From Spirochaetales bacterium (GTDB lineage Bacteria > Spirochaetota > Spirochaetia > Treponematales > UBA12059): 64,000 bases of DNA. Below the pieces are notes generated by a model. It saw nothing but the letters and a program-made list of their open reading frames with translations, was not told the origin of the DNA and ran no database searches. Location of the stretch: contig JAFGNN010000056.1 in NCBI GenBank assembly GCA_016926955.1, forward strand, positions 1-64,000, in the 5' to 3' direction. This document shows, in pieces, positions 20,186-57,767 of the stretch; position 1 is the stretch's first letter, and the number at the start of each line of letters is the position of its first letter. Both the position numbers and the translations under genes were made by a program.

Positions 20186-20195
20186 GCACGGTCGC

Positions 20196-39366: not shown

Positions 39367-42162
39367 ATGAAGAAGCGAACTTGGTTCGCGGCCGCGATCG
39401 CGGCCATGGTAATTGCGGCGCTGCTCGGTGCCTGCGCTGGCGCGCCGGACGCGGAGGACGTGTTCTCGGCGGGGCCCGCTTTCGAGACGGTCGAACCCGG
39501 CACGGTCGAGGACAAGGGCCACCCGCTCATGAACCGCGTGGTCGCGGCGCACGACGAGCTCAAGCCCGCCGCCGACGAGGTGGTGGTCTACTACGTGCGC
39601 AACGACAAGGACTACGCCAGCTGGGGCTTCTGGCTCTGGGCCGTGCCCGGCGGCGACGGCTCCCTCGCCTGGGACAAGACCCAGCACCTCGGCGTCGCGG
39701 CCGACGTGGGTTACCTGCGCTTCAAGAAGGACGGCTCGACCCTGGGCGTAAACACAATCGGAGCGGACGGCCTCTTCGGCCTCATCGCCCGCCGCGATTC
39801 CGGCTGGGACAAGGACGGGGACAACGACCGCATCCTCGACGCGAACGTGACGAACGAATGGGTCATCTTCGAGAAGGACGGCAAGACTTACGCCTACGGA
39901 CCATACGTGCCCACCATCGACAACGCCAGGCTCGCGAGCGGCACCGAGATCGTGCTCGACCTGTCCGGCCGCTTCGGCCTGCCGACCGAAGCCGGAAATG
40001 GCGGCTTCACCGTGAGCCGCGCGGACGGCTCGGGCGAGCTGGCCATAGTCGACGTGGTCAACAACGCCGACCCCGCGAACAAGGCCAACAACTACGCGCG
40101 CCGCGTCCTCGTCAAGCTCGCCGCGGAAGCGCCCCTCGACGCCCCGCTCGTCGTGTCGCACCCGGCCTTCCTCGCGCCGGTCGCGGTGGATTCGGCCGCG
40201 CTCGCCGCTTCGCTGGCCGACAAGCTGGTGCCGCCCGAGGGCTACAAGCTCGGCGCCATTTACGACACGACGCGCAAGTCGGTCGAGTTCCGCCTCTGGA
40301 GCCCCTTCGCCAGCAAGGTCGTGGTCCGGCTCTACAAGGCCAGCCAGGCAGCCAAGGCCGACTACAGCCTCGAGCTCTCGAAGGACGCCGCGACCGGCGT
40401 GTGGTCGGGACGCTTTTCGACCGTCGATCCGGACGGATTCTTCTACGAATACGGCGTTTTCGCCGGTGCCAAGGAGCGCATCGCGCTCGACCCGTACGCC
40501 TGGTCAATGGACGCCTTCACCGGCACGGGCATCGGCCGCGGCGCCGTGGTGAATCCCGCCAGGGCCCTGCCCGCGGGCGGCTGGGAAGGCTACGAGGACG
40601 TGGTTCTCGCCCGGCGCGAGGACGCGGTCATCTACGAGGTCTCGGTCCGCGACTTCACCATCGCCAGGGACTCGGGCGTCAAGGCGAGGCCCGGCTCGTA
40701 CCTGGCCTTCATCGAGAAAATCCCCTATCTGAAGGCGCTCGGCGTCACCCATGTCCAGCTCATGCCGGTGCTGAACTTCTACTACACCGACGAGACCAAG
40801 ACCGCCTACGAGGCCACGGGCCGTGCGAGCGACAACAACTACAACTGGGGCTACGACCCGCACTCGTACTTCACGCCCGAGGGCTGGTACGCGAGCGACG
40901 CGCGCGATCCCTACGCTCGCATGGTCGAGCTCAAGACCCTGGTCAAGGAGCTGCACAAGGCCGGCCTCGGCGTCCTGTTGGACGTGGTCTACAACCACAC
41001 GGCCAACACCGAGATCTTCGAGCCCGTCGTGCCAGGCTACTTCTACCGCCGCGACGCGCGCGGCGCGCTCACGAGCCAGTCCGGCTGCGGCAACGACGTC
41101 GCCACCGAGCGCGCCATGGCCGCCCGCCTGATGCGCGATTCGCTCGAATACTGGGTGCGCGAGTACAAGGTCGACGGCTTCCGCTTCGACCTCATGGGCC
41201 TGATCGCGGCCGACCCCATCCTGAAGGCGCGCGATGCCATCGCGAAGATTCCCGGAAAGGACGACATCCTCTTCCAGGGCGAGGGCTGGAAGATGTACTC
41301 CGGGCCGACTCTCGCGGTCATGGACCAGAACTACATGACCCGCACCGACCAGGTCGCCGTCTTCAACGACGAGATCCGCGACATCCTCAAGGCCGGCGGC
41401 ATGAACGACCGGCAGAAGGGCTTCGTCACGGGCAAGCCGGTCAACACGGCCATGATCTTCAACAACATCTCGGGCCGGCCCATGCTCAACTTCAAGGCGG
41501 ACGACCCGGGCGACGCGATGATCTACGTCTCGGCCCACGACAACCTGACCCTGGCCGACAACATCGCCTTCAACACCGGGCTCATGGCGCGCTACGCCGA
41601 CGAGCGCGCGGAGATCGCCGCCCGCGTCAAGCTGGCCAACTTCTTCGTGCTGACCGGGCAGGGCATCGCGTTCCTGCACGGCGGCGACGAGCGCGGCCGC
41701 ACGAAGCCGAAACTCTCGAGCACCACCGAGGTGACCGGCGACTACGTCCACAACAGCTACGACGCCTCCGACGACATCAACCAATTCCCCTGGACCGTGG
41801 AGGAGGAGTTCTCGGAGAGCGCCGAGTGGGTGAAGGGGCTCATCGCCATCCGCAAGGCCAACACCGCCTTCCGCCTCGGCGACGCCGCGAAGGTGGCCGC
41901 CGCCCAGAAGCAGCTGGCCCACGGCGACCAGCTCTCGATGGGCTGGACCCTGGCCTCGGAGGGACAGACCTTCGTCCTCCTCGTGAACGCGAACTTCGAC
42001 CTTCCGCAGACCTTCGAGGTCGGCATGCCGCTTTCGGGCGCGCGCGCCCTGGTGGATTCCGACGAGGCTGACCCCGACGGGGTATCGGAGCCCAGCGGCT
42101 ACGGGGTCGATGGTACCACGATCACCGTAGAGCCCCTGACCGCGATCATGCTGAAGCTGTAA
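39367..42162 (+). CDS. Lipoprotein pullulanase, type I (GH13)
   Basis: Debranching enzyme of 931 aa that hydrolyses alpha-1,6 links in pullulan and starch. Lipobox LLGAC (Cys23) predicts a lipid anchor. A CBM41-like domain (about 60-165) and a CBM48-like domain (FRLWSPFASKVVVRLYKAS, about 305) precede the catalytic barrel. The pullulanase signature YNWGYDPHSYFTPEG is near 491; catalytic residues are in GFRFDLMGL (Asp near 606), LFQGEGWKM (Glu near 636) and SAHDNLTL (Asp near 723). AGGAGG at 39355-39360 fixes the ATG. Its anchor and the following outer-membrane cluster suggest surface degradation of alpha-glucan. Surface rather than periplasmic placement is inference. Confidence 0.93.
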   Translation: MKKRTWFAAAIAAMVIAALLGACAGAPDAEDVFSAGPAFETVEPGTVEDKGHPLMNRVVAAHDELKPAADEVVVYYVRNDKDYASWGFWLWAVPGGDGSLAWDKTQHLGVAADVGYLRFKKDGSTLGVNTIGADGLFGLIARRDSGWDKDGDNDRILDANVTNEWVIFEKDGKTYAYGPYVPTIDNARLASGTEIVLDLSGRFGLPTEAGNGGFTVSRADGSGELAIVDVVNNADPANKANNYARRVLVKLAAEAPLDAPLVVSHPAFLAPVAVDSAALAASLADKLVPPEGYKLGAIYDTTRKSVEFRLWSPFASKVVVRLYKASQAAKADYSLELSKDAATGVWSGRFSTVDPDGFFYEYGVFAGAKERIALDPYAWSMDAFTGTGIGRGAVVNPARALPAGGWEGYEDVVLARREDAVIYEVSVRDFTIARDSGVKARPGSYLAFIEKIPYLKALGVTHVQLMPVLNFYYTDETKTAYEATGRASDNNYNWGYDPHSYFTPEGWYASDARDPYARMVELKTLVKELHKAGLGVLLDVVYNHTANTEIFEPVVPGYFYRRDARGALTSQSGCGNDVATERAMAARLMRDSLEYWVREYKVDGFRFDLMGLIAADPILKARDAIAKIPGKDDILFQGEGWKMYSGPTLAVMDQNYMTRTDQVAVFNDEIRDILKAGGMNDRQKGFVTGKPVNTAMIFNNISGRPMLNFKADDPGDAMIYVSAHDNLTLADNIAFNTGLMARYADERAEIAARVKLANFFVLTGQGIAFLHGGDERGRTKPKLSSTTEVTGDYVHNSYDASDDINQFPWTVEEEFSESAEWVKGLIAIRKANTAFRLGDAAKVAAAQKQLAHGDQLSMGWTLASEGQTFVLLVNANFDLPQTFEVGMPLSGARALVDSDEADPDGVSEPSGYGVDGTTITVEPLTAIMLKL

Positions 42163-42278: not shown

Positions 42279-42290
42279 TAAATCGGTTTA
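42279..42290. promoter_or_regulatory. Upstream LacI-type operator of the outer-membrane cluster
   Basis: TAAATCGGTTTA differs by one base from the perfect palindrome at 18824. It lies about 110 bp upstream of the tandem operator array and no convincing promoter box is in register with it, so it may be an auxiliary site for repressor looping. The surrounding DNA (42235-42360) is noticeably A+T-richer than the rest of the window. Confidence 0.6.
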
Positions 42291-42383
42291 GAGCTAAACA
42301 CGCGATAAGCAAAAATACCATGGACTGGCGTTTTTTCCACCTTCGACAGCAATTTCAGTGGCTCGGTGCGAAAGGTTCGGGAT

Positions 42384-42434
42384 TACACTCACCCGTCAAA
42401 CCGGTTTAGAAAATCGGTTTAGCAAAGCGGTTTA
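42384..42434 (+). promoter_or_regulatory. -10 box followed by three tandem LacI-type operators
   Basis: TACACT at 42384-42389 is a possible -10 box. It is followed, 7 bp later, by CAAACCGGTTTA (42397-42408), AAAATCGGTTTA (42410-42421) and CAAAGCGGTTTA (42423-42434), a direct repeat with exact 13-bp period, and then a degenerate fourth CAAAACCGCC from 42436. No good -35 box is seen. The array lies 120 bp before the first barrel gene and should give tight or graded repression. Confidence 0.72.
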
Positions 42435-42554
42435 GCAAAACCGCCGCTTGCCGGATTCGCGGCAGCCACTTCGATTCCGGGGCTCGCTCCACGAGCCATG
42501 GAAGGCGCCGGGGATCCCGCGCCGCATGCGGCGGAACGGATGAGGGAGGAGTAT

Positions 42555-44549
42555 GTGATCAAACGCACGATACTGACGCTGGCCCTGGCCTTGCTCGTGG
42601 CCGGGATGTCGGTCGCGGAGGTCCGCGTGAAGGCGCTCGACGATGTCAACGTCGAGATCATCTTCACATGGAAGGACGACGCGGCGACCGAAATGGCGGT
42701 CATCGGAACCTTCAACAATTGGGTCGAACCCGGCGTCCCCATGACCCGGAACGCGGACGGCCTGTGGGAATACACCCTCAAGGGCACGGTGACGGACGAG
42801 ATCGCCTACAAGATCTTCAACAAGGGCACCTACATTTTCGACGCTGGCGCCCCGGACAAGAAGGACGACGGCTTCGGCGGCAACAACGGCCTCATCATCG
42901 TGGCCGACGTGCTGGCGGGTATCGCGCCCGGGCAGCTGGCGGCCTCGGGCGCCGCGGGCGGCTCGACGGGTTTCGTCAACACCTACCCGAGCAAGTTCAA
43001 CTTCGGCATGTATACCGTCCTCGGCTCGAAGTCTACCTTCGTCACCCAGGGCCTCGTGGACAAGACCGTCAAGGGGCTCGAGACCGACTCGACCGGCCTC
43101 TACGGCAAGTCCTACTGGAAGGTCGGCGGCACCCTCTGGCCGAGCGTCACCGCCTGGTTCGAGATGAAGGTTTTCGACGGCTACCAGGCCATCTGGGCCC
43201 AGGACGCCACGGGCCTGGTGAGTCCCGAACTCGACGCGGGACTCGCTGGACTCTTCTCGGGCCTGCTCTTCAATCCGGTCAACTGGCTCGGCGGCGCGAA
43301 TCCCGTGCTCAACTCCATCAAGACCGGCCTCGAGACGCCCTTCCTCGTCTGGGAGACCGGCTACGGCTACGCCAAGCCCACCAAGCGCACGGCCGTGCTC
43401 TGGGAAACCCTGAACGAGCGCGACGGCAACGACGGTTACATGCGCTTCGACCTGGGGCCCGAGCTCCGCAAGATCGGCGGCCTCGCGATCGAGGCGACCA
43501 TCGCTCCCAACAAGATGTCCGGCAACTACGGCTTCTTCGGCTGGTTCGGCGCCTCGCTCGGAGATCTCAAGCTGGACTTCCAGTACGACTTCAAGAGCGC
43601 CGCCACCGACGACCTGTCCGCCATCTTCGACAAGCTCTACCACCAGGACCTGCTTTTCGGCGCCAAGTACAAGCTCGCGGGCGTGAACCTGGCGGCCCAG
43701 GGCCTCGTGAACCTCTACAGCGAGGAACCCTTCGGCATCGACAGCCACACGGCGGCCGAGCTCAAGGCCGACTGGGCCCTGCCCGCCGACGCGTTCGGGC
43801 TGGCCGCGAGCTACCGCTATACGGGCTCGATGGCCGAGCTGCTCTTCGGCAACGCCGATTCCCTCGGCACCAAGGGCACGCAGCGCGTCTACCTCAACCT
43901 CTGGGGCAAGCCGCTTCCGGCCCTCAAGCTCGGTCTCGATTCGAGCGCCGTGCTCGAGTCGGCGAAAATCGCCGACGCCGCGATCGAGTTCGACGCCAAG
44001 CCCTACGCCGAGTACGCGCTCGACGCCCTGCTCGGCAAAAAGAGCTCGGTGAACGCCTACGCCAAGCTCAAGTACGACCTTGAGACGGGCGCCGCCTACG
44101 AGGCGAGCGGCTCGGCCTTCCAGTTCGGCGAAGCCGGCGCGAAGTTCTACCTCGATGCCCCCGTGCCTTCGGTCGTCAACTCGATGGACCTTTATTGGGG
44201 CTTCAACAACTGGGACGCGGACAAGGTCTTCAACACCCTGATCGCCTCGTTCCGCATGCCGAAGGACCTTTCGGCGGAACTCGGCCTCGGCCTGCGCACC
44301 CCGCGCGCCTCGGCTTCGAGCGAGGTCAAGGCCGAGAACAACCTGCTCGGCGCCTCCATCGGCGCCTCGTGGAAGGTGCCCAAGCCCGCCCTCAAGAGCC
44401 CGCTCATCTACGGCGCCTTCGCCTGGAACATGGACCCTTACGATTCGGACGGAAACACGCTCGCGATGGACGGCTACACCACCGCGGACGGCGCGGCCAA
44501 GAACGACGGCTACGCCACCTTCCGGCTCATGATGAAGTGGGATTTCTAG
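42555..44549 (+). CDS. Predicted outer-membrane barrel with N-terminal glycogen-binding (CBM48/E-set) domain, paralogue 1
   Basis: 664 aa. A signal peptide (residues 1-22) leads to an AMPK/CBM48-like domain (about 25-115) with IGTFNNW, MTRNADGLWEYTL, YKIFNKGTYIFD and GGNNGLIIV, the pattern used to bind alpha-glucans. A Gly/Ala-rich linker follows. The rest (about 145-664) is rich in alternating amphipathic strands and ends KWDF with a terminal Phe, as in outer-membrane barrels. The GTG at 42555 fits the signal peptide with GGGAGG at 42544-42549. A paralogue lies at 45061. I know no named family with this layout; a porin for maltodextrins is the likeliest role. Confidence 0.75.
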   Translation: MIKRTILTLALALLVAGMSVAEVRVKALDDVNVEIIFTWKDDAATEMAVIGTFNNWVEPGVPMTRNADGLWEYTLKGTVTDEIAYKIFNKGTYIFDAGAPDKKDDGFGGNNGLIIVADVLAGIAPGQLAASGAAGGSTGFVNTYPSKFNFGMYTVLGSKSTFVTQGLVDKTVKGLETDSTGLYGKSYWKVGGTLWPSVTAWFEMKVFDGYQAIWAQDATGLVSPELDAGLAGLFSGLLFNPVNWLGGANPVLNSIKTGLETPFLVWETGYGYAKPTKRTAVLWETLNERDGNDGYMRFDLGPELRKIGGLAIEATIAPNKMSGNYGFFGWFGASLGDLKLDFQYDFKSAATDDLSAIFDKLYHQDLLFGAKYKLAGVNLAAQGLVNLYSEEPFGIDSHTAAELKADWALPADAFGLAASYRYTGSMAELLFGNADSLGTKGTQRVYLNLWGKPLPALKLGLDSSAVLESAKIADAAIEFDAKPYAEYALDALLGKKSSVNAYAKLKYDLETGAAYEASGSAFQFGEAGAKFYLDAPVPSVVNSMDLYWGFNNWDADKVFNTLIASFRMPKDLSAELGLGLRTPRASASSEVKAENNLLGASIGASWKVPKPALKSPLIYGAFAWNMDPYDSDGNTLAMDGYTTADGAAKNDGYATFRLMMKWDF

Positions 44550-44565
44550 CATGAGGAACGCGAAC

Positions 44566-45048
44566 ATGAAGCATACGACAATATTCGCCGCCCTGCTCCT
44601 CGTCGCCGTCGCCGTCCTTTCGGGCTGCGGCAGCGTGCTCCACAACGGCACGGAGATGGCGATCGAGCGGGTGACCCTGACCGGCCTGCCTTCGGCGGTC
44701 TACGCGGAAGGCCAGGAGATGGTCTTCTCCTACAACATGGGAGACGCTGGCTGGATCCATGACGACGCGAACGCCGCCCTTTTCGCTATGCCCAAGTATC
44801 GCGCCAGCGTGGCCGCCGACGGCTCGCTGGTCTTCAACTTCGGTTCGCCGATCGAGATCGTCACGCCGACCTTGACCTTCCTGCTGATCGATCCGGACAA
44901 GACCTGGGCGACGCTTAAGATCGACCTCAAGCACTCGGGCAAGTCGGGCGGCGACGTGGTGCTCGACAACACCTGGGCCGGCGCCGCCGCGCCCGAGCGC
45001 GTCCTCGGCGTCGTCTCCGGCGACGACGTTGCCTGGGACTACGAGTAA
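44566..45048 (+). CDS. Small lipoprotein of the glycan-binding barrel cluster
   Basis: About 160 aa. The lipobox VLSGC follows a hydrophobic signal helix, so it should be anchored to a membrane. The mature part is beta-rich with aromatic residues (NMGDAGWIHDDANAALF, LLIDPDKTWATLKIDL). No family is recognised. It lies between the two paralogous barrel genes, 16 bp after the first and 12 bp before the second, so it is probably a subunit of the same surface complex. The ATG at 44566 has AGGAA upstream; an in-frame ATG at 44551 is the alternative. Confidence 0.7.
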   Translation: MKHTTIFAALLLVAVAVLSGCGSVLHNGTEMAIERVTLTGLPSAVYAEGQEMVFSYNMGDAGWIHDDANAALFAMPKYRASVAADGSLVFNFGSPIEIVTPTLTFLLIDPDKTWATLKIDLKHSGKSGGDVVLDNTWAGAAAPERVLGVVSGDDVAWDYE

Positions 45049-45060
45049 GGAGTGGACGGC

Positions 45061-47022
45061 ATGAACCTCAAGAAATTGCTCGCCGCCGTCGCGGTACTCT
45101 TCCTGCTCGGAAGCGCGGCCTTCGCGGACGTACGGATCAAGGACGAAGGGAGCGGCAAGGTCGCCATCACCTTCACGCACAAGGACGACGCGGCCACCGA
45201 GATGGCGGTCATCGGTTCCTTCAACAGCTGGGTCGAGCCGGGCGAGCCCATGGCGCGCAACGCCGACGGGCTCTGGGAGCTGACCATCGAGGCGAGCGTC
45301 GAAGACGAGATCGTCTACAAGTTCTTCTCGAAGGGCAGCTACATCTTCGACTTCAAGGCGCCCGACAAGAAGGACGACGGCTTCGGGGGCAACAACGGCC
45401 TCATCGTCGTGGCCGACGTGCTGGCCATGCAGGCCGCCGGCGTCTCGAGCGCCTCGGGCGGCTCTGCCGCCGCGGTTGTCCCGCTCCTCCCCGGAGCGCG
45501 CAAGAAACTGGCCTTCGGCACCTTCGCCTTCGTCGAGAGCGACACCCGCTTCGACACCACCGACGGCTTCGACGCCGTCCAGTCGACGGTGGACGCGAAG
45601 AGCGTCTGGAAGCTCGAGGGCGACGTGGTCGGCAAGATGCCGGCCTTCTTCGAGATCACCTTCTTCGACGGCTCGACGCCCGTCTGGGAGGACGGCGTCA
45701 CCCCGCTCGGCGACGGCCTCGAGTCGCTCGCCTCGGGCTTCGTCTTCAATCCGGCCTTCTGGCTCGGCGCGGAAGCGCGCCCAAGCCTCGACAAGTTCCG
45801 TTTCGGCTTCGACACGAAGTACGTGGCCTACGAAACCGGCTACGGCGAAACCTGGCTCCCCGGCCGCGAGTCCGTGCTCTGGGAGACGGTCGAGGTCGAA
45901 GGCACGTCCGCCGGTCTCGGCTACTCGTCGTTCCGGCTCGGCTCCGAGCTCCGCGAGATCGGCGACTTCAGCTTCGACGCCGCCCTGGTGCCGAACCGGA
46001 GCCTGAACGACTTCTACGGCCTCTACGCCTGGGCGAAGGCCGCCTACGGCGACTACGAGCTCGACTTCCAGTACGACCTGCGCTCGCTGACCAAGACCGA
46101 GCCGCTCGAGATCTTCGAGGTCCTGACGCGCCAGGACTACATAGTCGGCGCACGCGGCTACATCGGCATGCTCGGGCTTTCGGGGCAGTTCCTGCTCTCG
46201 CGCTTCACCCCGGGCGGCACGGCCGAGGCGCTCCCCTTCACAGACAAGATGGCCGCGGCGCTCAAAATTGACTACGCGGACTTCTTCGAGCTCTGGGACG
46301 GCTACGTCGAAGCCCGCTACCGCGGCTCGGCTGCGCAGCTGCTCTACCTGGACGCGGACGGCAACGCCGAAGAGCTCGGCGACCCCGAGACCCTCGGCCT
46401 CGACCTGGGCGGCTCCATCCGCCTCGGCCACTGGCTGCGCGGCAAGCTCGACGCGGGCGCCACGCTCTCGAGCGTGGACCTCTTCGCCGGCAACATCGCC
46501 GTCGCGGCGCGCCCCGGCCTCACCGTCGACGTGAGCCTGCTCGCCAAGCGGCCGCTCACGGCGGAACTCTACGCCGACCTCTCCTACGACACCGTGCCCG
46601 ACGCCGGCAAGGACGCGTTCAACTTCATCCAGGCAGGGCTCGCGGCCCACGCGGGCGACCTGTTGCCCGGCTTGCTCGAGACGGTGGACCTCTGGTACGG
46701 CCTTTCGAACGGCGCCACGATGTGGAACTCCCTGCTCGCGGAGCTCGGCTTCGCGCACGGCATCAGCGCCCAGATCGGCGGCGGCTTCCGCTCGGGCGGC
46801 GCGGTGACGAACCCGATGGGCGCCCTTCTCGGCGCGGCGTGGGTCGTGCCCGCGCCGCAAGCCAAGAGCCCGACCGTGTACGCGCAGTTCGTCTGGAACA
46901 TGGACCCCTACGACGCCGAGGACATCACGGCCTTCGACCTCACCGACGACCTGCCCAGCTCGGGCGTCGCGGCCTCGGAGACCGAAGCCGCCCTGCGCTT
47001 CGGCATCACCTGGAATTTCTAG
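45061..47022 (+). CDS. Predicted outer-membrane barrel with N-terminal glycogen-binding (CBM48/E-set) domain, paralogue 2
   Basis: 653 aa, same layout as the product of 42555-44549: signal peptide (1-20), CBM48-like domain (about 22-115) with IGSFNSW, MARNADGLWELTI, YKFFSKGSYIFD and GGNNGLIVV, a linker and a long strand-rich region ending TWNF. The N-terminal domains of the two paralogues are nearly identical over long runs (for example KDDAATEMAVIG), whereas the barrels have diverged apart from the WNMDPYD block near the end. That pattern suggests duplication with barrel specialisation. The ATG at 45061 has AAGGAG 8 bp upstream. Confidence 0.75.
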   Translation: MNLKKLLAAVAVLFLLGSAAFADVRIKDEGSGKVAITFTHKDDAATEMAVIGSFNSWVEPGEPMARNADGLWELTIEASVEDEIVYKFFSKGSYIFDFKAPDKKDDGFGGNNGLIVVADVLAMQAAGVSSASGGSAAAVVPLLPGARKKLAFGTFAFVESDTRFDTTDGFDAVQSTVDAKSVWKLEGDVVGKMPAFFEITFFDGSTPVWEDGVTPLGDGLESLASGFVFNPAFWLGAEARPSLDKFRFGFDTKYVAYETGYGETWLPGRESVLWETVEVEGTSAGLGYSSFRLGSELREIGDFSFDAALVPNRSLNDFYGLYAWAKAAYGDYELDFQYDLRSLTKTEPLEIFEVLTRQDYIVGARGYIGMLGLSGQFLLSRFTPGGTAEALPFTDKMAAALKIDYADFFELWDGYVEARYRGSAAQLLYLDADGNAEELGDPETLGLDLGGSIRLGHWLRGKLDAGATLSSVDLFAGNIAVAARPGLTVDVSLLAKRPLTAELYADLSYDTVPDAGKDAFNFIQAGLAAHAGDLLPGLLETVDLWYGLSNGATMWNSLLAELGFAHGISAQIGGGFRSGGAVTNPMGALLGAAWVVPAPQAKSPTVYAQFVWNMDPYDAEDITAFDLTDDLPSSGVAASETEAALRFGITWNF

Positions 47023-47039
47023 CGAGTGGTTTCCAATGA

Positions 47040-47104
47040 CCGGGGATCCGTCGGGCGTAGGCCCGGCTCCCCGGCATTCCCATCCAATGCCTGCGGCATT
47101 GGAT
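47040..47104 (+). repeat. Two leader hairpins before the SusE/F-like lipoprotein gene
   Basis: The first stem pairs 47040-47046 with 47068-47074 and encloses a second complementary stretch (GTCGGGC with GCCCGGC). The second pairs 47082-47091 with 47095-47104 (10 bp perfect, 3-nt loop). They precede the AAGGAG ribosome site at 47108-47113 and may stabilise the upstream mRNA or set lipoprotein dosage. Confidence 0.6.
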
Positions 47105-47119
47105 TACAAGGAGAGCGAC

Positions 47120-48313
47120 ATGAAGAAGGCTATGCTTCTTCTCCTGGCCGCCGTGACCCTGCTCGGGTTCGTGGCGTGCCCCAGCCCGACCGGTAGCGAC
47201 CCCGTCGACCTGACCTCGGACTGGAAGATCAAGGGCAGCTTCGACAGCTGGGCCACGCACAACTTCACCATGGATGAGCTCGACAACAACATCCTGACCT
47301 ACACGTACTCAAGCCTTCGCGCGATCGACTATGAATTCGTGCTCATGAACGCCGCCGGCGGCGAGCTCAAGTACAGCACCGAGACCAACGTCGCCGTGGA
47401 CACACCGTTCACTATGGGCTCAGGCGCTATCAATGCGAGCTTCACGGCCACCACCGTCGAAGTCACCGTGACTGTCGACATCAGCGTCCCCGCGTCCCCC
47501 GTGGTAACCCTCGTGACGAGCGGCGCCGCTGCCACTCCGTATAACGTCGCCGAATTGGCCGAAGGCCTCTTCATCAAGGGCGACATGTTCACCATCGGCT
47601 GGACCAACACCGCCGGCACCCTTGTCGACAACGCCGACGGCACCGGCACCGTTACCTTCGCCGGCCTGACGGCTGCCAGCAAGACCGGCAGCTTCGGCTT
47701 CGACTCCCGTGACGGGTTCCTCAAGGGCGTATCCGTCGTTTCCCCGACGGTCGCTGACAGCTCCACCGCTCCGGTCGGCCTCCAGACCTCGGGCGACAAC
47801 TGCGTCATCACCGACATCCCCAACTCGGACTCCGTCTACACCATCGTCATCACGATCGACGAGGACGGCGCCACCATCGCCGACAAGTACTCGATGGTCG
47901 TTACCCTGACCTCCGTCGGCACAACCGCGTGGGCTTTCGATCCGCCGGTTTCCATCTGGCTCGTCGGCGACCTTAAGGGCGCCACTGATATGACCACGTG
48001 GTCGACGACCGACGATGGCCGCGCCCAGGTAGATCTCGTCAGCGATGTCGCGACTTACGCTTTCACCGCGGACACCACCTACGATGCCGCCTTCAAGTAC
48101 GCGACCGCGGCGGACTCGGGCTGGGACAATCTGGTCGGCTTCACCGGCGTCGACTCCTCCACGTCGCCCGTGACGGTCGTGAATCCGGGTGGTGGCGGGA
48201 ACATCGGGTTCGCCGCGACTTCCGGCAACACCTACACGATCGTCATCGATTTCTCCACCGATTATGCAGTGACCGGCATTCCGGTTCTCACGATCACCGA
48301 GACCACTCCCTGA
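47120..48313 (+). CDS. Multi-domain lipoprotein with three SusE/F-like starch-binding modules
   Basis: 397 aa. The lipoprotein signal ends in FVAC, a relaxed lipobox of spirochaete type. Three beta-sandwich modules of about 100-125 residues follow: the first opens WKIKGSFDSWATHNFTMDE, the second LFIKGDMFTIGWTNTAG, the third IWLVGDLKGATDMTTW. The G-D/S and W placements recall the starch-binding domains of Bacteroides SusE/SusF. Thr/Val-rich composition is typical of exposed lipoproteins. The ATG at 47120 has AAGGAG 6 bp upstream; an earlier in-frame start lacks a signal. Last gene of the cluster. Assignment to SusE/F type rests on pattern, not alignment. Confidence 0.72.
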   Translation: MKKAMLLLLAAVTLLGFVACPSPTGSDPVDLTSDWKIKGSFDSWATHNFTMDELDNNILTYTYSSLRAIDYEFVLMNAAGGELKYSTETNVAVDTPFTMGSGAINASFTATTVEVTVTVDISVPASPVVTLVTSGAAATPYNVAELAEGLFIKGDMFTIGWTNTAGTLVDNADGTGTVTFAGLTAASKTGSFGFDSRDGFLKGVSVVSPTVADSSTAPVGLQTSGDNCVITDIPNSDSVYTIVITIDEDGATIADKYSMVVTLTSVGTTAWAFDPPVSIWLVGDLKGATDMTTWSTTDDGRAQVDLVSDVATYAFTADTTYDAAFKYATAADSGWDNLVGFTGVDSSTSPVTVVNPGGGGNIGFAATSGNTYTIVIDFSTDYAVTGIPVLTITETTP

Positions 48314-50133: not shown

Positions 50134-52524
50134 ATGAATTACCGCAAGATCGACACGCCGGAGAATTACCGTTTCGCCCCCGCGGCGGCCGATCCAGGCG
50201 CCGCGGCCCTGCCGGGCGGAAACGCTCACGCCCTGCTTGCGGGCGGTCCGCATCCGGACGTGGAGCTCGTCCTCGAGGATATGGGCTCCGACGTCTACCG
50301 CCTGAGGGGAAGGTCCGCGCGCTGGCCGTGCGGAATGGGGAGCCTGGCCGGGCTCGACGCTTCGTCCTTCGCCCAGCGGCCCTCGGAGGCCGCGTGCCGG
50401 CTTTCGGCCGACGGCGGCGTGTCGCTGTCGCTGGACGGCGCGACCCTGCTCTCGGGCGCGGGCTTCGGACTGTGCGGGGCGAAGTGGATGCTGCGTTTCG
50501 AGCCCGACGAGGCCTTGCGCTTCCATGGGCTCGGAGGAAAGAACCTCGGCTTCGAGCTTTCACTCAAGCGCACCATCTTCTGGAACACCGACCTCTTCGC
50601 CGACTTCGAGTGGAGCGCGGTCTCGGAATCGCGCGCCGATCCGCTCTACGCGTCCTTCCCGGTGCTGATCGGGCGGAAATCTGGCTCGGCCTCCGGCGGG
50701 CCCTGGTTCGCCCTCGTCATGGACGCGCCGTACCCGGGCTTCGCGAATCTCGGCGCGGGGGAGGGGATTTTCGCCGCGGGCTCGACGCCCTTCGAGCGCT
50801 GGCTTTACCTGGGCGCCCGCGACGGGGCGCCGGACCTGTGGATCATGGCGGACCGCTCGGGCGCGGGCCTCGTGCGGAAGATCCAGGCCCTGCAGGGCAG
50901 GGCGGAGCTGCCTCCGCTCTGGGCCCTCGGCCACCACCAGTGCCGCTGGGGCTACAAGGACTACGCCGACCTGGACCGCGTCGCGACGGAGTACGAACGG
51001 CGCGGCATCCCCAACGACGGGCTCTGGCTCGACATCGACTACATGGACGGCTTCCGCGTCTTCACCATCGACAGGCGGCATTTCGACGCGCCCGCCGCGC
51101 AACTCGAAGAGCTGGCCGAGCGCGGCTGCCGCGTCGTGCCCATCCTCGACCCGGGGCTCCGGCGCGACCCGAATTTTCCCGCGTACACGAAGGCGAAGGA
51201 AGGGGACCTGCTCTGCCGCAATCCCGAGGGCGGCGACTACATCGGCTTCGTGTGGCCGGGCTACACGGCCTTCCCGGATTTCTCGCTGCCCGAGGCGCGC
51301 GCGTGGTGGGCGTCGGAAGTCGAGCGCTTCGCGAAGCTCGGCTTTTCCGGTTTCTGGATCGACATGAACGATCCGTCCACGGGCAGCGCGCCGCTTTCGG
51401 ATCTGCGCTTCGGCCGCGGCGAGCTTCCGCATGAAGCCTTCCACAACCAGTACGCGCTCGGCATGGCCATGGCGACGCGCGAGGGCTTAGGGCGCGCGCG
51501 ACCGGGGCTCCGGCAATTCCTCATCAGCCGTTCCGCGTACCTCGGCATGGCGAAGCACGCGGGCATGTGGACGGGCGACAACGTGTCGAACGTCCACCAC
51601 CTGCGCGCGTCCGTCGCGTTCAGCTTGAATCTTTCGGTGTCGGGCATGCCCTTCAACGGCCCCGACGTGCCGGGCTTCGCGGGCGACGCGTCGGCGGCGC
51701 TCATGGAAGCCTGGTACAAGGCGGGCTTCCTTTTCCCCTTCCTGCGCAACCATTCCGTGGCCGGCTCGCGCGACCAGGAGCCCTGGACGCGCGGGCGGCG
51801 CACGGAGCGAATCGTCGCGGAATGCATCCGCTCGCGCTACAAGCTCATCCTCTACCTCTACCAGGCTTGGATCGAGGCCGCCGAGAACGGGGACCCCGTC
51901 ATGCGGCCGCTCTGGTACCAGTATCCGGAAGAAGCATGGACGAGCGAGGCCGAGGCGGGCGACGAATTCCTTGCCGGGCCGGACCTGCTCCACGCGCCGG
52001 TGCTGGACGAACGCGCCGCATCGCGCCTCGTGCGACTGCCGCGCGGCCGCTGGTTCGACTGGGCCTCGGGCCGCTTCGTGGAGGGGGGCAGGGTGGTCCG
52101 CGCGGCTCCGGGGCGATACGGCACGCCGCTCTTCGTCCGTTCCGGCGCCGTCGTGCCGATGCTGCCGGGCACGCGCGACACGAACCACAAGGACTTGCGG
52201 CTCGTGGACTTCGTCCTCTTCGTGGAAGAGGGCGGCACGGCGGTTTTCCGCTACCGCGCGGACGACGGCGAGACGCTTGCGTACCGCGACGGAGCGCGCA
52301 GCGTGCTGGACCTCAAGGTCCGCGTGGAGGGCGGGACCGCCTTCGTCGAGACCGCGCTCCCCGAATCGGGCTACGGGACCGTCGTCTACCGTATCGTCGC
52401 GCCGAAGGCGTCAGGCATCCGGGCCATCGAGCTGAACGGCGAGCGCATGGAACTCTCGCGCGAGAGGCTCGCCCTGGCGGGCCGACGGCACCGGGCGCTC
52501 GCGACGGAGACGCGAACGGCCTAG
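50134..52524 (+). CDS. Alpha-glucosidase, glycoside hydrolase family 31
   Basis: 796 aa without a signal peptide, so cytoplasmic. It should release glucose from the non-reducing ends of malto-oligosaccharides, although GH31 also contains alpha-xylosidases and transglucosidases. The nucleophile block is GFWIDMNDPS (Asp near 409) and the acid/base block MWTGDNVSNVHHLR (Asp near 482). The common WxDMNE signature has Asp instead of its last Glu here. The LPPLWALGHHQCRWGYKD and NDGLWLDIDYMDGFRVFTID stretches are canonical. ATG 50134 has AAGGAA upstream and is 26 bp after the ATPase stop; the longer frame back to 49279 lies inside that gene. Confidence 0.93.
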   Translation: MNYRKIDTPENYRFAPAAADPGAAALPGGNAHALLAGGPHPDVELVLEDMGSDVYRLRGRSARWPCGMGSLAGLDASSFAQRPSEAACRLSADGGVSLSLDGATLLSGAGFGLCGAKWMLRFEPDEALRFHGLGGKNLGFELSLKRTIFWNTDLFADFEWSAVSESRADPLYASFPVLIGRKSGSASGGPWFALVMDAPYPGFANLGAGEGIFAAGSTPFERWLYLGARDGAPDLWIMADRSGAGLVRKIQALQGRAELPPLWALGHHQCRWGYKDYADLDRVATEYERRGIPNDGLWLDIDYMDGFRVFTIDRRHFDAPAAQLEELAERGCRVVPILDPGLRRDPNFPAYTKAKEGDLLCRNPEGGDYIGFVWPGYTAFPDFSLPEARAWWASEVERFAKLGFSGFWIDMNDPSTGSAPLSDLRFGRGELPHEAFHNQYALGMAMATREGLGRARPGLRQFLISRSAYLGMAKHAGMWTGDNVSNVHHLRASVAFSLNLSVSGMPFNGPDVPGFAGDASAALMEAWYKAGFLFPFLRNHSVAGSRDQEPWTRGRRTERIVAECIRSRYKLILYLYQAWIEAAENGDPVMRPLWYQYPEEAWTSEAEAGDEFLAGPDLLHAPVLDERAASRLVRLPRGRWFDWASGRFVEGGRVVRAAPGRYGTPLFVRSGAVVPMLPGTRDTNHKDLRLVDFVLFVEEGGTAVFRYRADDGETLAYRDGARSVLDLKVRVEGGTAFVETALPESGYGTVVYRIVAPKASGIRAIELNGERMELSRERLALAGRRHRALATETRTA

Positions 52525-52543
52525 GAAAAGCGCGCGATTTGGC

Positions 52544-52571
52544 TTGTCGTCCGGTTATACCGTAGTTATAC
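52544..52571 (+). promoter_or_regulatory. Promoter with direct repeats before the toxin-antitoxin pair
   Basis: TTGTCG (52544-52549), a 16-bp spacer and TTATAC (52566-52571) form a promoter 8 bp before the antitoxin ATG. GTTATAC is repeated at 52554-52560 and 52565-52571, one helical turn apart, which is a plausible site for autoregulation by the antitoxin. Confidence 0.5.
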
Positions 52572-52579
52572 TCAGTCTT

Positions 52580-52837
52580 ATGAAGACCGCAATATCGGTG
52601 CCCGACTCGGTATACGCCGAGGCGGAAGAAGTCGCGGAAGCCCTGGGCATCCCCCGGAGCCAGCTCTACGCGCGGGCGCTCGAGGAATTCGTGCGGAAGC
52701 ATCGCGTCGACGCGGTGACCGAGCGGCTCGACGCGGTTTACGGGCCGGGCGGCACCGCCCCTGCCGCGGAAACGCCGCCGGAAGACGGGGCCGCGGTAGA
52801 ATCGATCCGCACGCTGACGCGCCATGACTCGTGGTGA
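52580..52837 (+). CDS. MazE/ChpI-like ribbon-helix-helix antitoxin
   Basis: 85 aa. The N-terminal MKTAISVPDSVYAEAEEVAEALGIPRSQLYARALEEF is a ribbon-helix-helix DNA-binding fold, and the acidic, disordered-looking C-terminus is the usual toxin-binding part. It overlaps the toxin gene by 14 bp. It is close in layout to ChpI of Leptospira. The ATG at 52580 begins the fold; a longer frame from 52544 runs through the promoter. Confidence 0.87.
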   Translation: MKTAISVPDSVYAEAEEVAEALGIPRSQLYARALEEFVRKHRVDAVTERLDAVYGPGGTAPAAETPPEDGAAVESIRTLTRHDSW

Positions 52838-53165
52838 GGTTTTCTGGGCGGACTTCGGCCTGCCTTTCGGCAGCGAAACGGGTTTCCGGCGTCCCGTCGT
52901 CGTCCTGCAGTCGGACGCGTTCAACGCCAGCCGGATCGGAACCGTCCTTGTCGTGCCGCTCACGACGAACCTCGCGCTCGCCGACGCGCCGGGCAACGTT
53001 TTCGTCGAAGCCCGCGAATCCGGGCTCTCCAAGGATTCGGTGGCCGTCGTTTCGCAGCTGGCGGCCATCGACCGGCGGCGACTTCTCGAGCGGGCCGGGG
53101 CGCTCGGCCAGGCGACGCTGGCGCGACTCGAGCTCGGCCTCAAGCTGGTTCTCGATCTGACCTGA
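52824..53165 (+). CDS. MazF/ChpK-like endoribonuclease toxin
   Basis: 113 aa of the PemK/MazF family, which cleaves mRNA at short sequences. Motifs are RGEVFWADFGLPFGSETGFRRPVVVLQSD and VVPLTTNLALADAPGNVFV, with the VVSQLAAIDRRRL block near the C-terminus. Overlap with the antitoxin gene ensures coupled production. It is next to the ATPase/GH31 segment and ends 61 bp from the convergent debranching gene. Confidence 0.92.
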   Translation: MTRGEVFWADFGLPFGSETGFRRPVVVLQSDAFNASRIGTVLVVPLTTNLALADAPGNVFVEARESGLSKDSVAVVSQLAAIDRRRLLERAGALGQATLARLELGLKLVLDLT

Positions 53166-53226
53166 CCTGGCCCCCTCATGCCCCCCGATCTGCCTCGACT
53201 TGACCCTGGGTGTGCGTCGCTCCCGT

Positions 53227-56200
53227 TCACGCCTCCGTGAACAAGAACAAGCTCTTGCCCGGCAGGTCGAAGGCGCCTTCGCGGGGCGCGTCGAGCGGAC
53301 GGATCGAGGCGCGCGCGCTGCCGGAATCGGCGATCAAGGCCCAGCGACCGCGCGGCAGGCGGACGCGGCAGGGCGCTTCGTTCGAGTTGGCGGCGACGAA
53401 GATCGAGCCCTCACCGTCGCGGGCGCGGCCGCCGTCGATGCGCCAGGCGAGGACGCCCCCCGAATCTGCGGTGAAGCGGAGCGCGGCGCGGATGTCGGAT
53501 CCCCGGACCATGCGCAGGCAGGGACGCGTCTTGCGGAGCTCGATCAGCCGGCGCAGGTACTCGACGGTGGCCTGATTTGACGCGGCGCGACGCCAGTCGA
53601 GTCCGTTGAGCAGCCTCCCGGCCTTGTACGAATCGTGGCAGAAAAAGCGCCTGAGGTCGGGCGTGGCGACGCACTTGTCGATGCCGCCGGCGACGAGCCA
53701 CTCGGCGGGCACTTCCTTCGAGCGGAGGAACTCCGAGCCCGCGTGCAGTATGACCGTGCCCTGGGCACCCAACACGAGCGAGAGCGCCAGGCGCTGGAGC
53801 CGGGCGTAGCGCGACTCGTCCATGCCGGGCTCCACGAGGAGGAGCTTGTCGTGGAGGGTCAGGTTGTCGTGGACCTCGACGTAGGCCAGGCTCGAGGACG
53901 CGCTGTTTCCCCAGGGTTTCGGGTTGGCGCTGCCTTCCACCCTGCGCGAACGAACCTGCCGGTGGCGGACCGCGCCCGCGAGGCCGAACTTCACCGATTC
54001 GACGCGCGAGCCGTCGTGGATCCAGCCCTTTCCCGCCGCGTCGAACACCGAGCCCTTGACTCCGTCGCGGAAGGCGTCGTTGAACATGCCGAAGCCCGGC
54101 AGTTCGCGGATATTGGCCTGGCTGGCCGGGACCATGCGCCCGCCGCGATAGAGGTCCCAACCCTCGCCCCAGAGGAGGACATCAGGCCTGAGCATCCGGA
54201 GACGCCGTTCGACGCGGCGCATGGTTTCCGCGTCGTGGAGGCCCATGAGATCGAAGCGGAAGCCCGAAAGCTTGTACGCCTCGAGCCACCAGGCGAGCGA
54301 ATCCGCCATGAAACGGGCGAACATGAAGCGCTCGCTGGCCGTGTCGTCGCCGGCGCCCGAATCTCGCCTGTCGCGGAAATAGTAGCCGGGCACGCAGGCC
54401 TCGAGCGGCGAGCGGCGCCGATCGGGAACGTGGTTGTACACGACGTCCATGACCACGCCCATGCCCGCCTCGCCGGCCGCCTTGACGAGCGTCCGGAGCT
54501 CGCGCACGCGCGCCTCGCCGTCGGCCGGGTCGCCCGAGTAGGAGCCCTCGGGCGCGTTCCAGTTGCCGGGATCGTAGCCCCAGTTGAAGGCGCCGCCTTC
54601 TCGCCGCGCGGCGTAGTCCGGAGCGCCGACCCGTGCCTCGTCGACCGAGACGAAGTCGAAGACGGGCAGGAGCTGGAGGTGGGTGACGCCGAGCGAGCGG
54701 ACGTGGTCGAAGCCGGTGGGAAGCTCGACGCCGTCGGGGCTCCGGTAGCGGGTGCCCCCGAGCGCGGCGCCCGCGTAGGTGTCACGAAGCTTCGGGTCGC
54801 CGCCCCAGGAATCCCTGCTCGTGAGGTCGTCGACATGGACTTCGTAGACCACGGCGTCGCAGGGGGAGGCGCACTCCGGCGGCCGGAACCCGCTCCAGCC
54901 CTCCGGCGCGGCGCGCGCGGGGTCGAGTACCATGCCGCGATGGCCGTTCAGACCCGCGGAGCGCGCGTAGGGATCGATCGTCTCGCGCGCGAGGCCGTGT
55001 ACCCGCAGGCGCCAGGCGTAGTAACTGCCGTGCAGGTCGCCGGAAACGCGGGTTTCCCACACGCCCTTGCGCTCCGCGGACATCGGGTGGAGCTGCGGTT
55101 CCTCTCCGGCGTCGCCGCTTCGGTACAACGCGAGCGTCACGTGGGTCGCGGTGGGAGCCCAGACGCGGAAGGTGGTGGATCCGGGCGACCAGAGGGCGCC
55201 GAGCGCCGCGTCCGCATCGCAGGCCGCAGTGAATTCCGGCGAGTCGAACCACGACTTCAGCGTCGCGATCTCGCCCGAATCAGCGGCACCGGAGCTCACG
55301 AGCTTTTCGAGCCAGTCCTTTTCTCTCGACGGACCGTTCCAGGGCGGCAGGCGCGGCGTTGCGAAAGCGAGACCCCGGAGCGCGGCGAAGCGCAGGCGCG
55401 CGGGCGAACCCGGACCCGGCGGATCGGCCTCGACCGCGCCCCCGGCAAGGCGCGCGAGCTTGCCGCCCGCTTCGTCGAAGCGGAGGGTGAGCGGAGCGCC
55501 GGAGACAAGGGTGAAATCCCAGGCGCGGTCGCCTTCGGGGCAGGCAAGCTCGAGCCGTAAGCCGAGTTCGCGCGGCGTCGCTCCGTGGTCGCCGGAGGAC
55601 CAGTCGAGTTCGAGCTCGAGGGGGCCCGCGTCGCACCGTTCCCAGGAGAGCGAAAGCGAGCCCGTCGAGGCGAGGCGCGTTACGAGGCTGCCGGAGCGGG
55701 CGTTCTCGGGCACGCGCGGCGCGAGCGCGACGCGGGAATGGAGCAGGTCGGGGCGCAAACCGAGCCAGTCCTCGGCCGCGTTGCGGACGAACTCGGAGAC
55801 GCTCCAGGCTTGCGCGAAGGTGCCGGAATGCGCCGGAAGCCCGTCCGGCCCCGGGAGGGCGTCGAGGTTTTCGGACAATGCGCCGACCGCGCCGTCGTCG
55901 AGGATCTGGCGGGCCAATTCGTCGCGCAGGGCGCGCGCCAGCTCGACCTGGCCGTGCCTGAGCAGGGCCGAGACGGCAAAGCCCGAGTTCCAGGCCCAGA
56001 TCGTGCCGTTGTGGTAGGCCGCGTCCTTCTGCCAGAGCGCCGAACCGGAATGCCTCGGATGGAAGCGAGGATCTTCCTGCGAAAGGCTCGCGACGCCGTA
56101 GGGGTAGACGAGCTCGGGGACGAGGTCCGCGAGCAGCGCGGCTTCCTCCCCGGGTTCGAGCAGAGCCTCTTCGTCCTCGAAGACGGCGGGAACGGTGATG

Positions 56201-57705
56201 GCCATGAAGGCGTTCGGCCGCGCGCTCCAGTCGGGCTCGCCGGGCGTTCCGTCCGGAGCGTCTGGGCGCAGACGGTCGGCCAGCCGCACGATGCCGGCTT
56301 CGCGACGGATGAAGCGTTCGCGGAAGGAAGCGCGGAGCAAGGCCGCGGCATCGCGGTAGCGCGCTTCGCGTGCGGAGTCGCCCGCGAGCGCGGCGACGCG
56401 CGCGCCGACGAGGAGGGCAGTGTAGTGCAAGGCCTGCACTTCGACGGCGCGGTCGCCGCGCGGGCTCCAGGGCTCGGCTCCCTGGAGCCGGGCGTCCATC
56501 CAGGTGTCGGCGTCCCCGTGGCGCAGGAAGCCCGCGGCGTCGCAGCGGGCCTGGTCCGCGTCCAGGGCGCGGTCCACGAAGGGCTTCATGCGGAGCAGGA
56601 ACTCGCGGTCGCCGGTCCGGCGCGCCAGATCCCAGATCTCGCGGACCAGCCAGGGCGTGCCGTCGGCGGTGTTGTAGATGACATCATCGGGCCCGCGCCA
56701 GCGGTTCGGCACGCGGCCGCAGTCGGGGCTCGCGGGATCGAGGTTCTGCCGCGCGGCGAAGGTCTCGATGACCTCGCGAGCCTCCTCGAAGCGGCCCGTC
56801 GCCAGCAGGATGCCCGGCAGGGCTATGAAGGTGTCGCGCCCCCAGTTGTCGCGGAACCAGGGCAGTCCGGCCCATACGCCGAGCCCGTGGGCGTCGCGCG
56901 TCACGAGGCTCCAGCCCGAAAAGGCGGCCCAGGCCAGGGCCTTGTCGGCGCGCTCGCCGCCCGTCCGGATCCGGAGGCCCTCCAGGAATGCGGCCACGGT
57001 CTTTTCGTGGGCGGCCAGGGCGTTCCGGCGGGCGAGGTCCGCGGCCCGCTCCGCGGCTTCATCAGGGGTCGGGGCCGTGGCGACGTAGAGCACGAACTCC
57101 CTGTCCGTCTCGAGCGAGTCCGCTCTCGGCGTAGCGGCGAAGCCCATGCCAACGAGCTCGAAACCCGTGGGGATGACGAGGCCGCGGCCCGCTCGCGCGC
57201 GGACATGGCGGAAGGGCGTAACCGAGGCGAGGGCGAGCGCCCCGGTCGGTCCCGGGACGGCGCGCGCGCACGTGAAGATGCCTTCATGCCCGGAGATCGA
57301 CCACGCCGCGTCGGAACGCGGCAGGACGAGGGCGACGCCGTCGTTCTTTCGCGCGGCATGGGGCTTGCGCGTCCCGGAACCCGCAGTCGCGCCGGAGCCC
57401 TCCAGGGCGAGCGCCAGGGCGTTTTGCTCCATGAGGAGCGCGATCCGGAGCCGGACATCCTCGCCCTCCACCCAAAGGTTGCCGGGCTGGACGCGGATCC
57501 TCCCGGATTCCCGGCCTTGCGCGACGCCGGAGCGGAGCTCGAGCGCGTCGCGGACGGGCGCGGCCTCGCCTGAAACCCAGCCTTCCCCGCGGCAGGAGCG
57601 CGATGAGTCGAGGTCGAGGTAGCCGCCCGCCCGGTCGCCCCAGGCTACGCGGCGGGAGGATCCGGGCTCGAGATCGATGGCGAGGGAAGCGGGAAACTCG
57701 CGCAT
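53227..57705 (-). CDS. Fusion of glycogen debranching enzyme (GH133-like) and type I pullulanase (GH13)
   Basis: 1492 aa in one uninterrupted frame. Residues about 1-245 are a GDE N-terminal domain and about 255-720 the alpha/alpha-barrel amylo-alpha-1,6-glucosidase, with WAGLPWFRDNWGRDTF near 278-293. Residues about 830-925 are CBM48-like (FRVWAPTATHVTLALY). The rest is a pullulanase barrel: FNWGYDPGNWNAPEG near 1038, GFRFDLMGL (Asp near 1148), LLWGEGWDL (Glu near 1177) and EVHDNLTL (Asp near 1275). No signal peptide is seen, so it is cytoplasmic. ATG 57705 has GGAG 6 bp upstream and a LacI-type operator beyond. Both halves keep their catalytic motifs. I know of no characterised enzyme with this pairing. 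Confidence 0.9.
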   Translation of the reverse strand: MREFPASLAIDLEPGSSRRVAWGDRAGGYLDLDSSRSCRGEGWVSGEAAPVRDALELRSGVAQGRESGRIRVQPGNLWVEGEDVRLRIALLMEQNALALALEGSGATAGSGTRKPHAARKNDGVALVLPRSDAAWSISGHEGIFTCARAVPGPTGALALASVTPFRHVRARAGRGLVIPTGFELVGMGFAATPRADSLETDREFVLYVATAPTPDEAAERAADLARRNALAAHEKTVAAFLEGLRIRTGGERADKALAWAAFSGWSLVTRDAHGLGVWAGLPWFRDNWGRDTFIALPGILLATGRFEEAREVIETFAARQNLDPASPDCGRVPNRWRGPDDVIYNTADGTPWLVREIWDLARRTGDREFLLRMKPFVDRALDADQARCDAAGFLRHGDADTWMDARLQGAEPWSPRGDRAVEVQALHYTALLVGARVAALAGDSAREARYRDAAALLRASFRERFIRREAGIVRLADRLRPDAPDGTPGEPDWSARPNAFMAITVPAVFEDEEALLEPGEEAALLADLVPELVYPYGVASLSQEDPRFHPRHSGSALWQKDAAYHNGTIWAWNSGFAVSALLRHGQVELARALRDELARQILDDGAVGALSENLDALPGPDGLPAHSGTFAQAWSVSEFVRNAAEDWLGLRPDLLHSRVALAPRVPENARSGSLVTRLASTGSLSLSWERCDAGPLELELDWSSGDHGATPRELGLRLELACPEGDRAWDFTLVSGAPLTLRFDEAGGKLARLAGGAVEADPPGPGSPARLRFAALRGLAFATPRLPPWNGPSREKDWLEKLVSSGAADSGEIATLKSWFDSPEFTAACDADAALGALWSPGSTTFRVWAPTATHVTLALYRSGDAGEEPQLHPMSAERKGVWETRVSGDLHGSYYAWRLRVHGLARETIDPYARSAGLNGHRGMVLDPARAAPEGWSGFRPPECASPCDAVVYEVHVDDLTSRDSWGGDPKLRDTYAGAALGGTRYRSPDGVELPTGFDHVRSLGVTHLQLLPVFDFVSVDEARVGAPDYAARREGGAFNWGYDPGNWNAPEGSYSGDPADGEARVRELRTLVKAAGEAGMGVVMDVVYNHVPDRRRSPLEACVPGYYFRDRRDSGAGDDTASERFMFARFMADSLAWWLEAYKLSGFRFDLMGLHDAETMRRVERRLRMLRPDVLLWGEGWDLYRGGRMVPASQANIRELPGFGMFNDAFRDGVKGSVFDAAGKGWIHDGSRVESVKFGLAGAVRHRQVRSRRVEGSANPKPWGNSASSSLAYVEVHDNLTLHDKLLLVEPGMDESRYARLQRLALSLVLGAQGTVILHAGSEFLRSKEVPAEWLVAGGIDKCVATPDLRRFFCHDSYKAGRLLNGLDWRRAASNQATVEYLRRLIELRKTRPCLRMVRGSDIRAALRFTADSGGVLAWRIDGGRARDGEGSIFVAANSNEAPCRVRLPRGRWALIADSGSARASIRPLDAPREGAFDLPGKSLFLFTEA

Positions 57706-57716
57706 TGGGGACTCCA

Positions 57717-57767
57717 AAAACCGGTTTACTTCATGGTAGACTAGCCCGACCGCCACCGCGCGGACAA
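57717..57767 (-). promoter_or_regulatory. Promoter with LacI-type operator (debranching fusion; divergent amylase)
   Basis: On the minus strand TTGTCC (57767-57762), an 18-bp spacer and TAGTCT (57743-57738) form a promoter. The operator TAAACCGGTTTT (57728-57717) starts 9 bp after the -10 box and ends 11 bp before the start codon. The geometry repeats that at 18788 and 35611. The divergent alpha-amylase gene starts at 57825, so the same site may influence it. Confidence 0.7.

Follow-up and report, generated by a model that had tools for sequence, protein, structure and literature searches.

How alpha-glucans cross the outer membrane of a Spirochaetales bacterium is the question raised by four genes in the window, i.e., the whole 64,000-nucleotide stretch of contig JAFGNN010000056.1 that was analyzed. 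The operon probably codes for a single alpha-glucan uptake system that is independent of TonB and has two outer-membrane units; transport itself is predicted.

Operon layout and operators

The four open reading frames are consecutive on the + strand (42498-44549, 44551-45048, 45052-47022, and 47036-48313), as a sequence-only reading had described them; they show the codon-position G+C expected of real genes, and their orthologs in a sister species are 91% identical. The first gene, barrel A, most likely starts at the GTG at 42555 (Shine-Dalgarno AGGGAGGAG) rather than at 42498, and the fourth, lipo3, most likely starts at 47120 rather than at 47036 (Table 1). The two long proteins, barrel A and barrel B, are paralogs with 40% identity that share a C-terminal Phe, and each is paired with a lipoprotein, lipoS and lipo3, respectively, whose lipobox was read from the sequence. 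The lipoprotein pullulanase reported next to the operon is likewise there, as a lipobox-bearing GH13 of the pullulanase type.

Table 1. Coordinates of the barrel operon, its operators, and the alpha-glucan genes around it (positions in the window).
Feature	Position	Strand	Remarks
Operator, then MalE/MalF/MalG-type ABC importer genes	18825..22074	+	operator at 18825; genes at 18881, 20303, 21217
LacI-family regulator	22229..23263	+	likely reader of the operators
Lipoprotein pullulanase	39367..42162	+	PUD + CBM48 + GH13; lipobox-bearing; upstream neighbor
Single operator AAATCGGTTTAG	42280..42291	+	same motif as regulon sites
Three tandem LacI-type operators (AAACCGGTTTAG / AAATCGGTTTAG / AAAGCGGTTTAG)	42398..42435	+	13-bp period; upstream of barrel A
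Barrel A	42555..44549	+	signal peptide, N-terminal CBM48, linker of ~22 residues (family mean), predicted 24-strand barrel, ends WDF; ORF opens at 42498
CBM48 core, barrel A	42681..42824	+	Pfam PF02922 match, then glucan-loop motif PDKKDDGFGGNNG
Predicted 24-strand beta-barrel region, barrel A	42993..44546	+	residues 166-683 of the 683-aa ORF
lipoS, small lipoprotein paired with barrel A	44551..45048	+	lipobox LSGC, then CGSVLHNGTEM
Barrel B, paralog of barrel A	45052..47022	+	signal peptide, CBM48, predicted barrel ending WNF
CBM48 core, barrel B	45190..45339	+	
lipo3, partner lipoprotein of barrel B	47120..48313	+	lipobox FVAC; three all-beta modules; SusF-like fold (model)
lipo3 modules	about 47210-47533, 47561-47917, 47951-48307	+	
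GH31	50140-52524	+	downstream; alpha-glucan gene block 50140..59546
GDE/pullulanase fusion	53227-57807	-	downstream
Alpha-amylase	57825-59546	+	downstream; operator at 57718

The tandem LacI-type operators noted ahead of the operon are real, with AAANCGGTTTAG sites at 42280 and in an array whose members start at 42398, 42411, and 42424. In total, ten AAANCGGTTTAG sites occur in the genome, and every one lies beside alpha-glucan genes or the barrel operon: four before barrel A, one each at malE (18825), GH77 (MalQ), and glycogen phosphorylase, and three at GH13 genes. The reversed control pattern had one genome match, and a slightly looser pattern added two sites, at 35649 and next to the alpha-amylase gene at 57825. 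Tandem 13-bp operator arrays also precede the barrel gene in two related loci (L069, L053), and related operator pairs precede it in two others (L058, L052). Since nearly all recurrences of the operators are next to malE, GH13, GH77, and phosphorylase genes, it is very probable that the barrel operon is part of an alpha-glucan regulon, which supports the substrate link that had been proposed; the LacI gene in the window likely encodes the regulator that reads these sites.

CBM48 domain and predicted outer-membrane barrel

Both long proteins scored above the Pfam cut-off for CBM48 (26.8 and 24.3 bits versus 22.4), and CBM48 was the only significant domain in either, further matches of barrel A to starch-binding modules falling below their own cut-offs. 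With a profile of 12 homologs, the AMPK beta-1 glycogen-binding domain (1z0n) was matched at E 3e-7, together with other CBM48 proteins. Among 45 full-length homologs, W75, K105, and W/Y112 were each conserved in 45/45 and N130 in 44/45, positions that we take to correspond to the glucan-contacting W100, K126, W133, and N150 of AMPK-beta1; a family-specific loop, PDxxDDGFGGxNG, was also nearly invariant. The N-terminal domain is strongly supported as a CBM48 of the glucan-binding type, with binding predicted from sequence. It resembles the CBM48/AMPK-beta glycogen-binding domains in fold, by profile match, and in the conserved glucan-contacting residues; however, the extended DDGFGG loop sets it apart, and its host is an outer-membrane barrel, whereas the usual hosts are GH13 enzymes or kinase subunits. 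The modest CBM48 scores, and the existence of related E-set domains that do not bind sugar, could instead point to a non-binding E-set domain on a general porin that lies in the regulon by chance. This reading is decidedly improbable, however, as the four positions that contact glucan hardly vary among the 45 proteins where other positions drift, and members next to amylases have the CBM48, whereas those next to GH53 galactanase lack it.

For the rest of barrel A, AlphaFold2 predicted that residue 165 is followed by 24 strands (mean pLDDT 72.5, pTM 0.58), in a model built from 12 sequences that is of moderate confidence and in which the CBM48 loop has pLDDT < 50. Foldseek comparison with the PDB gave 158 matches at E<=0.001, and TM-scores were modest (0.37-0.50); the best were PapC and FimD, usher pores of 24 strands, followed by other outer-membrane barrels, AlgE included. 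Over 42 homologs, odd loops averaged 18.2 residues (sd 5.2) and even turns 4.3 (sd 0.8), the two classes also differed in variability (p 4.6e-5), and indels fell in every second loop. Strand hydrophobicity alternation was 2.79 versus 1.14 +/- 0.17 in shuffled sequences, none of which reached the observed value (0/2000). An even number of amphipathic strands, short periplasmic turns, long and variable outer loops, and a C-terminal W-D/N-F or similar thus occur together, and the modeling, together with the sequence tests independent of it, strongly supports a 24-strand outer-membrane barrel as the remainder of each long protein. The fusion of CBM48 to an outer-membrane barrel, which the sequence-only reading had proposed and suggested checking by structure prediction and Foldseek, was supported by these results. 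The same reading had recognized no named family for the fusion, in agreement with Pfam and NCBIfam, which assigned only CBM48 to the two long proteins and no barrel family.

Membership in the usher or AlgE families was ruled out, at ~10% identity and with no usher domains. The spirochaete barrels share a predicted strand number of 24 with the chaperone-usher pores PapC and FimD but have no pilus genes, and because identity is only about 10%, these fold matches reflect barrel size only. This bears on the possibility that the barrels, like AlgE or the ushers found among the Foldseek matches, send out polysaccharide or protein and import no glucan. Such export is highly improbable: the operators and neighbors are catabolic (malE, GH13, GH77, phosphorylase, MalFG, and pullulanase), and no glycosyltransferase or synthase gene was found beside the barrels.

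Because the strands are even in number and the even-numbered turns are short, both the N- and C-termini would lie in the periplasm. With its terminus there, the CBM48 is probably in the periplasm or the barrel lumen, away from the surface, where it may act as a trap or plug; the 24 strands and the loop pattern run against a CBM48 displayed at the cell surface, as had been suggested.

Partner lipoproteins and the search for known pores

A lipoprotein gene was found <=200 bp after the barrel gene in 55/59 cases, versus 13/144 control ORFs, and many partner lipoproteins carry LHD or LHN a few residues past the lipid-bearing Cys. The unit is the barrel + lipoprotein pair, which occurs twice here and is conserved across Spirochaetia; two units in tandem are also present in L047, L048, L049, and L050, and such an arrangement is begun in L128. 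The sequence-only reading of a small lipoprotein and a three-module, SusE/F-like lipoprotein agrees with what was obtained for lipoS and lipo3. The lipo3 protein was modeled as three all-beta modules behind its lipobox, the layout of SusE/SusF, and published features of SusE fit it (PMC8211771). The lipo3 profile matched no PDB entry by sequence, so fold comparison was needed: SusF of B. thetaiotaomicron (4fe9) was the sole PDB match to the model at E<=0.001 (7e-7), and the AmyP starch-binding domain came next (E 0.035). Whole-chain TM-scores were low (0.17-0.19), which may reflect differing module orientation. Although lipo3 itself did not match PF16411 (SusF_SusE), the partner lipoprotein of L065 passed the cut-off of this family; the L065 contig is binned as Acetatifactor yet falls inside the treponeme branch of the tree, and is thus probably a mis-binned Treponema contig. 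Apart from this protein and an fn3 match in L064, most partner lipoproteins had weak or no Pfam matches, and no fold was recognized for lipoS.

Known uptake systems were sought in the genome, which is 98% complete. ALTERNATIVES was absent. The LamB profile (PF02264) was undetected in this genome, in 58 relatives, and in both long proteins. Of 59 genomes searched, 37 have a TonB-receptor barrel (PF00593), with 0/3 among those of this genus, and neither the plug family (PF07715) nor SusD (PF07980) was found in the genome; the two long proteins matched neither of the TonB-dependent transporter families (PF00593/PF07715). The absence of known outer-membrane starch-uptake alternatives from the genome is strongly supported, and the claim that no SusC/SusD or TonB-dependent receptor lies nearby holds genome-wide, with LamB undetected as well. 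These searches also bear on a role in adhesion, in which the barrels would tether lipoproteins and pullulanase, as a complex at the surface, to starch granules and sugars would enter via other porins. The SusE/F-like modules of the partner lipoproteins are consistent with such a scaffold, as SusE/F themselves bind and do not transport; however, a 24-strand barrel far exceeds the needs of an anchor, the predicted periplasmic position of the CBM48 is a poor place for adhesion, and neither LamB nor a TonB receptor is there in the genome to take over transport, making adhesion alone unlikely.

Distribution and proposed uptake route

Full-length homologs were found in Treponema (T. saccharophilum, T. 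porcinum, T. socranskii, and many MAGs), Gracilinema, Rectinema, Brucepastera, and other Spirochaetia. Alpha-glucan neighbors (GH13, pullulanase, GH31, or MalFG) were present at 16 of the 22 relatives' loci with >=7 kb of flank, family members that are not phylogenetically independent, against a background of just 17 GH13 stretches in the bacterium's own 3.38-Mb genome. L079 adds an amylase neighbor, and the class-level outgroups L162, L163, and L164 have GH57 or GH13 neighbors. No alpha-glucan neighbor was found at L051, L055, L057, L073, and L165, so a strict alpha-glucan neighborhood for every family member does not hold. Seven paralogs that have no CBM48 form one clade (100/100) in a midpoint-rooted tree, on which gain and loss of the CBM48 are not separable. 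A GH53 endo-galactanase was confirmed at four of their loci (L155, L156, L157, and L160) and a GH35 beta-galactosidase at two (L157 and L159). L158 has look-alike neighbors (unscanned), and the L161 locus is cut short. With the CBM48-less paralogs lying beside GH53/GH35 galactan genes, spirochaetes appear to use the barrel + lipoprotein pair as a general module for glycan uptake, in which the CBM48 goes with alpha-glucan.

Uptake of starch fragments would probably run through these units and involve none of the known starch-uptake pores. Each would consist of a 24-strand barrel and its co-encoded lipoprotein, with the N-terminal CBM48 in the periplasm or lumen. Probably at the cell surface, lipo3, lipoS, and the lipoprotein pullulanase would hold and trim starch or glycogen, and the wide barrel would admit maltodextrins or branched limit dextrins. 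At the inner mouth, the CBM48 may bind the incoming chain, as an affinity trap or a ligand-released plug, and deliver it to enzymes of the periplasm and to the MalEFG importer, which would carry dextrins across the inner membrane; the LacI-type regulator would set expression of the operon together with the rest of the regulon. In this scheme we infer pore activity, transport direction, the plug or trap role, and surface display of the lipoproteins. Of the earlier proposal of a TonB-independent Sus analog with a glucan-binding domain fused to the pore, the barrel fusion, the SusF-like lipoprotein, the regulon, and the lack of a TonB receptor stand, whereas surface placement of the CBM48 is not supported.

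Like the Bacteroides Sus system (SusC/SusD/SusE/SusF/SusG), the spirochaete locus co-encodes a predicted outer-membrane barrel with putative starch-binding lipoproteins and a lipoprotein amylase/pullulanase, and the lipo3 fold is SusF-like. However, Sus has a TonB-dependent plug/barrel and SusD, neither of which is in the spirochaete genome, and its barrel has 22 strands versus a predicted 24; in the spirochaete, moreover, the glucan-binding domain is fused to the barrel and the importer genes are of the MalEFG type. In the latter respect the proposed system resembles LamB-MalEFG of the E. coli mal regulon, in which passage across the outer membrane likewise does without TonB and supplies a MalEFG ABC importer from the same maltodextrin regulon, but LamB has 18 strands, and the spirochaete barrel also has a CBM and a lipoprotein partner. 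In LptD-LptE, too, an N-terminal beta-domain in the periplasm is joined to a barrel of very large size that has a lipoprotein as its partner (PMC8407342). LptD-LptE has 26 strands and exports LPS; the likeness is in layout only, with no sequence relation found. No published description of a CBM48-barrel fusion or of a spirochaete starch pore was found, which is weak evidence because the search covered open-access papers only.

More tentatively, and short of even confidence, these genes may represent an undescribed class of TonB-independent glycan transporters, widespread in Spirochaetia, in which a 24-strand barrel and a lipoprotein are combined with a substrate-specific N-terminal binding domain, which is a CBM48 where the substrate is alpha-glucan and is lacking where it is galactan; at the periplasmic end of the pore, this domain would serve as a plug or trap operated by its ligand. 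A carbohydrate-binding module would then be built into the pore, not into an enzyme, and annotators would gain a family name for barrels to which Pfam and NCBIfam assign no barrel family. For the starch- and pectin-using spirochaetes, including treponemes of rumen, gut, oral, and sediment habitats and their relatives, we found no described outer-membrane glycan uptake system; the candidate gene pair occurs in cultured T. saccharophilum and T. porcinum and is therefore testable. If the proposal is true, spirochaetes would have in this pair their own counterpart of SusCD, made of unrelated parts.

CBM48 proteins beyond the barrel family

Longer CBM48 proteins with WDF or WAF C-termini, 884-971 aa in length, are encoded by three spirochaete contigs (L087, L083 and L090), and the L087 protein contains two CBM48-like repeats; these may represent a second CBM48-barrel subfamily. 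The genome of the window also encodes a small CBM48 protein resembling those of its relatives. Outside the spirochaetes, a signal peptide, a CBM48-like domain and a long Phe-ended C-terminal part were combined in proteins from Eisenbacteria, Cloacimonadota, Gemmatimonadota and one unclassified bacterium, and the genes are often adjoined by small CBM48 proteins. These five are possibly fusions independent of the spirochaete one, since they could not be aligned to the spirochaete barrel (predicted 24 strands, N-terminal CBM48) except in CBM48.

Features discussed in the text, by contig or window position
Feature	Location	Description
Spirochaete CBM48 proteins	L087:7839-10751, L083:8016-10820, L090:7866-10517	Longer; WDF/WAF C-termini
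Small CBM48 protein	G000:C75:28408-28584	~166 aa; own genome
CBM48-like proteins beyond spirochaetes	L089:3834-6197, L092:4528-6588, L095:1857-4433, L106:1485-3773, L109:7842-10187	
Interrupted barrel gene	L076:7980-10145	Treponema socranskii
LacI-type operators	42398-42435	13-bp spacing
AAACCGGTTT operator site	35649	Just upstream of ABC-2 type exporter, sugar-kinase, pullulanase gene row

Strain variation and operators

In-frame stops interrupt the barrel gene in one T. socranskii strain (L076); it is intact in another (L074). Contig L065, binned as Acetatifactor (Bacillota), encodes the barrel together with a SusE/F lipoprotein; since it is placed among the treponemes in the tree, it is probably mis-binned Treponema.

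The operator spacing upstream of barrel A, retained in relatives L069 and L053, is apparently too tight for LacI dimers side by side on one helix face. The AAACCGGTTT site is also kept in the sister species.

Galactan locus and partner lipoproteins

In treponeme contigs L155-L161, barrel paralogues lacking CBM48 sit in a galactan locus comprising a GH53 with an Ig-like domain (GH53 confirmed in L155, L156, L157 and L160), the barrel, a small lipoprotein, further lipoproteins, a second GH53 and a GH35 (L157 and L159). The small lipoprotein carries an LHN/LHD motif. Many partner lipoproteins of L052-L079, encoded after the barrel gene, have LHD, LHN or MHD shortly after the lipidated Cys, and this motif may dock the partner lipoprotein onto the barrel.
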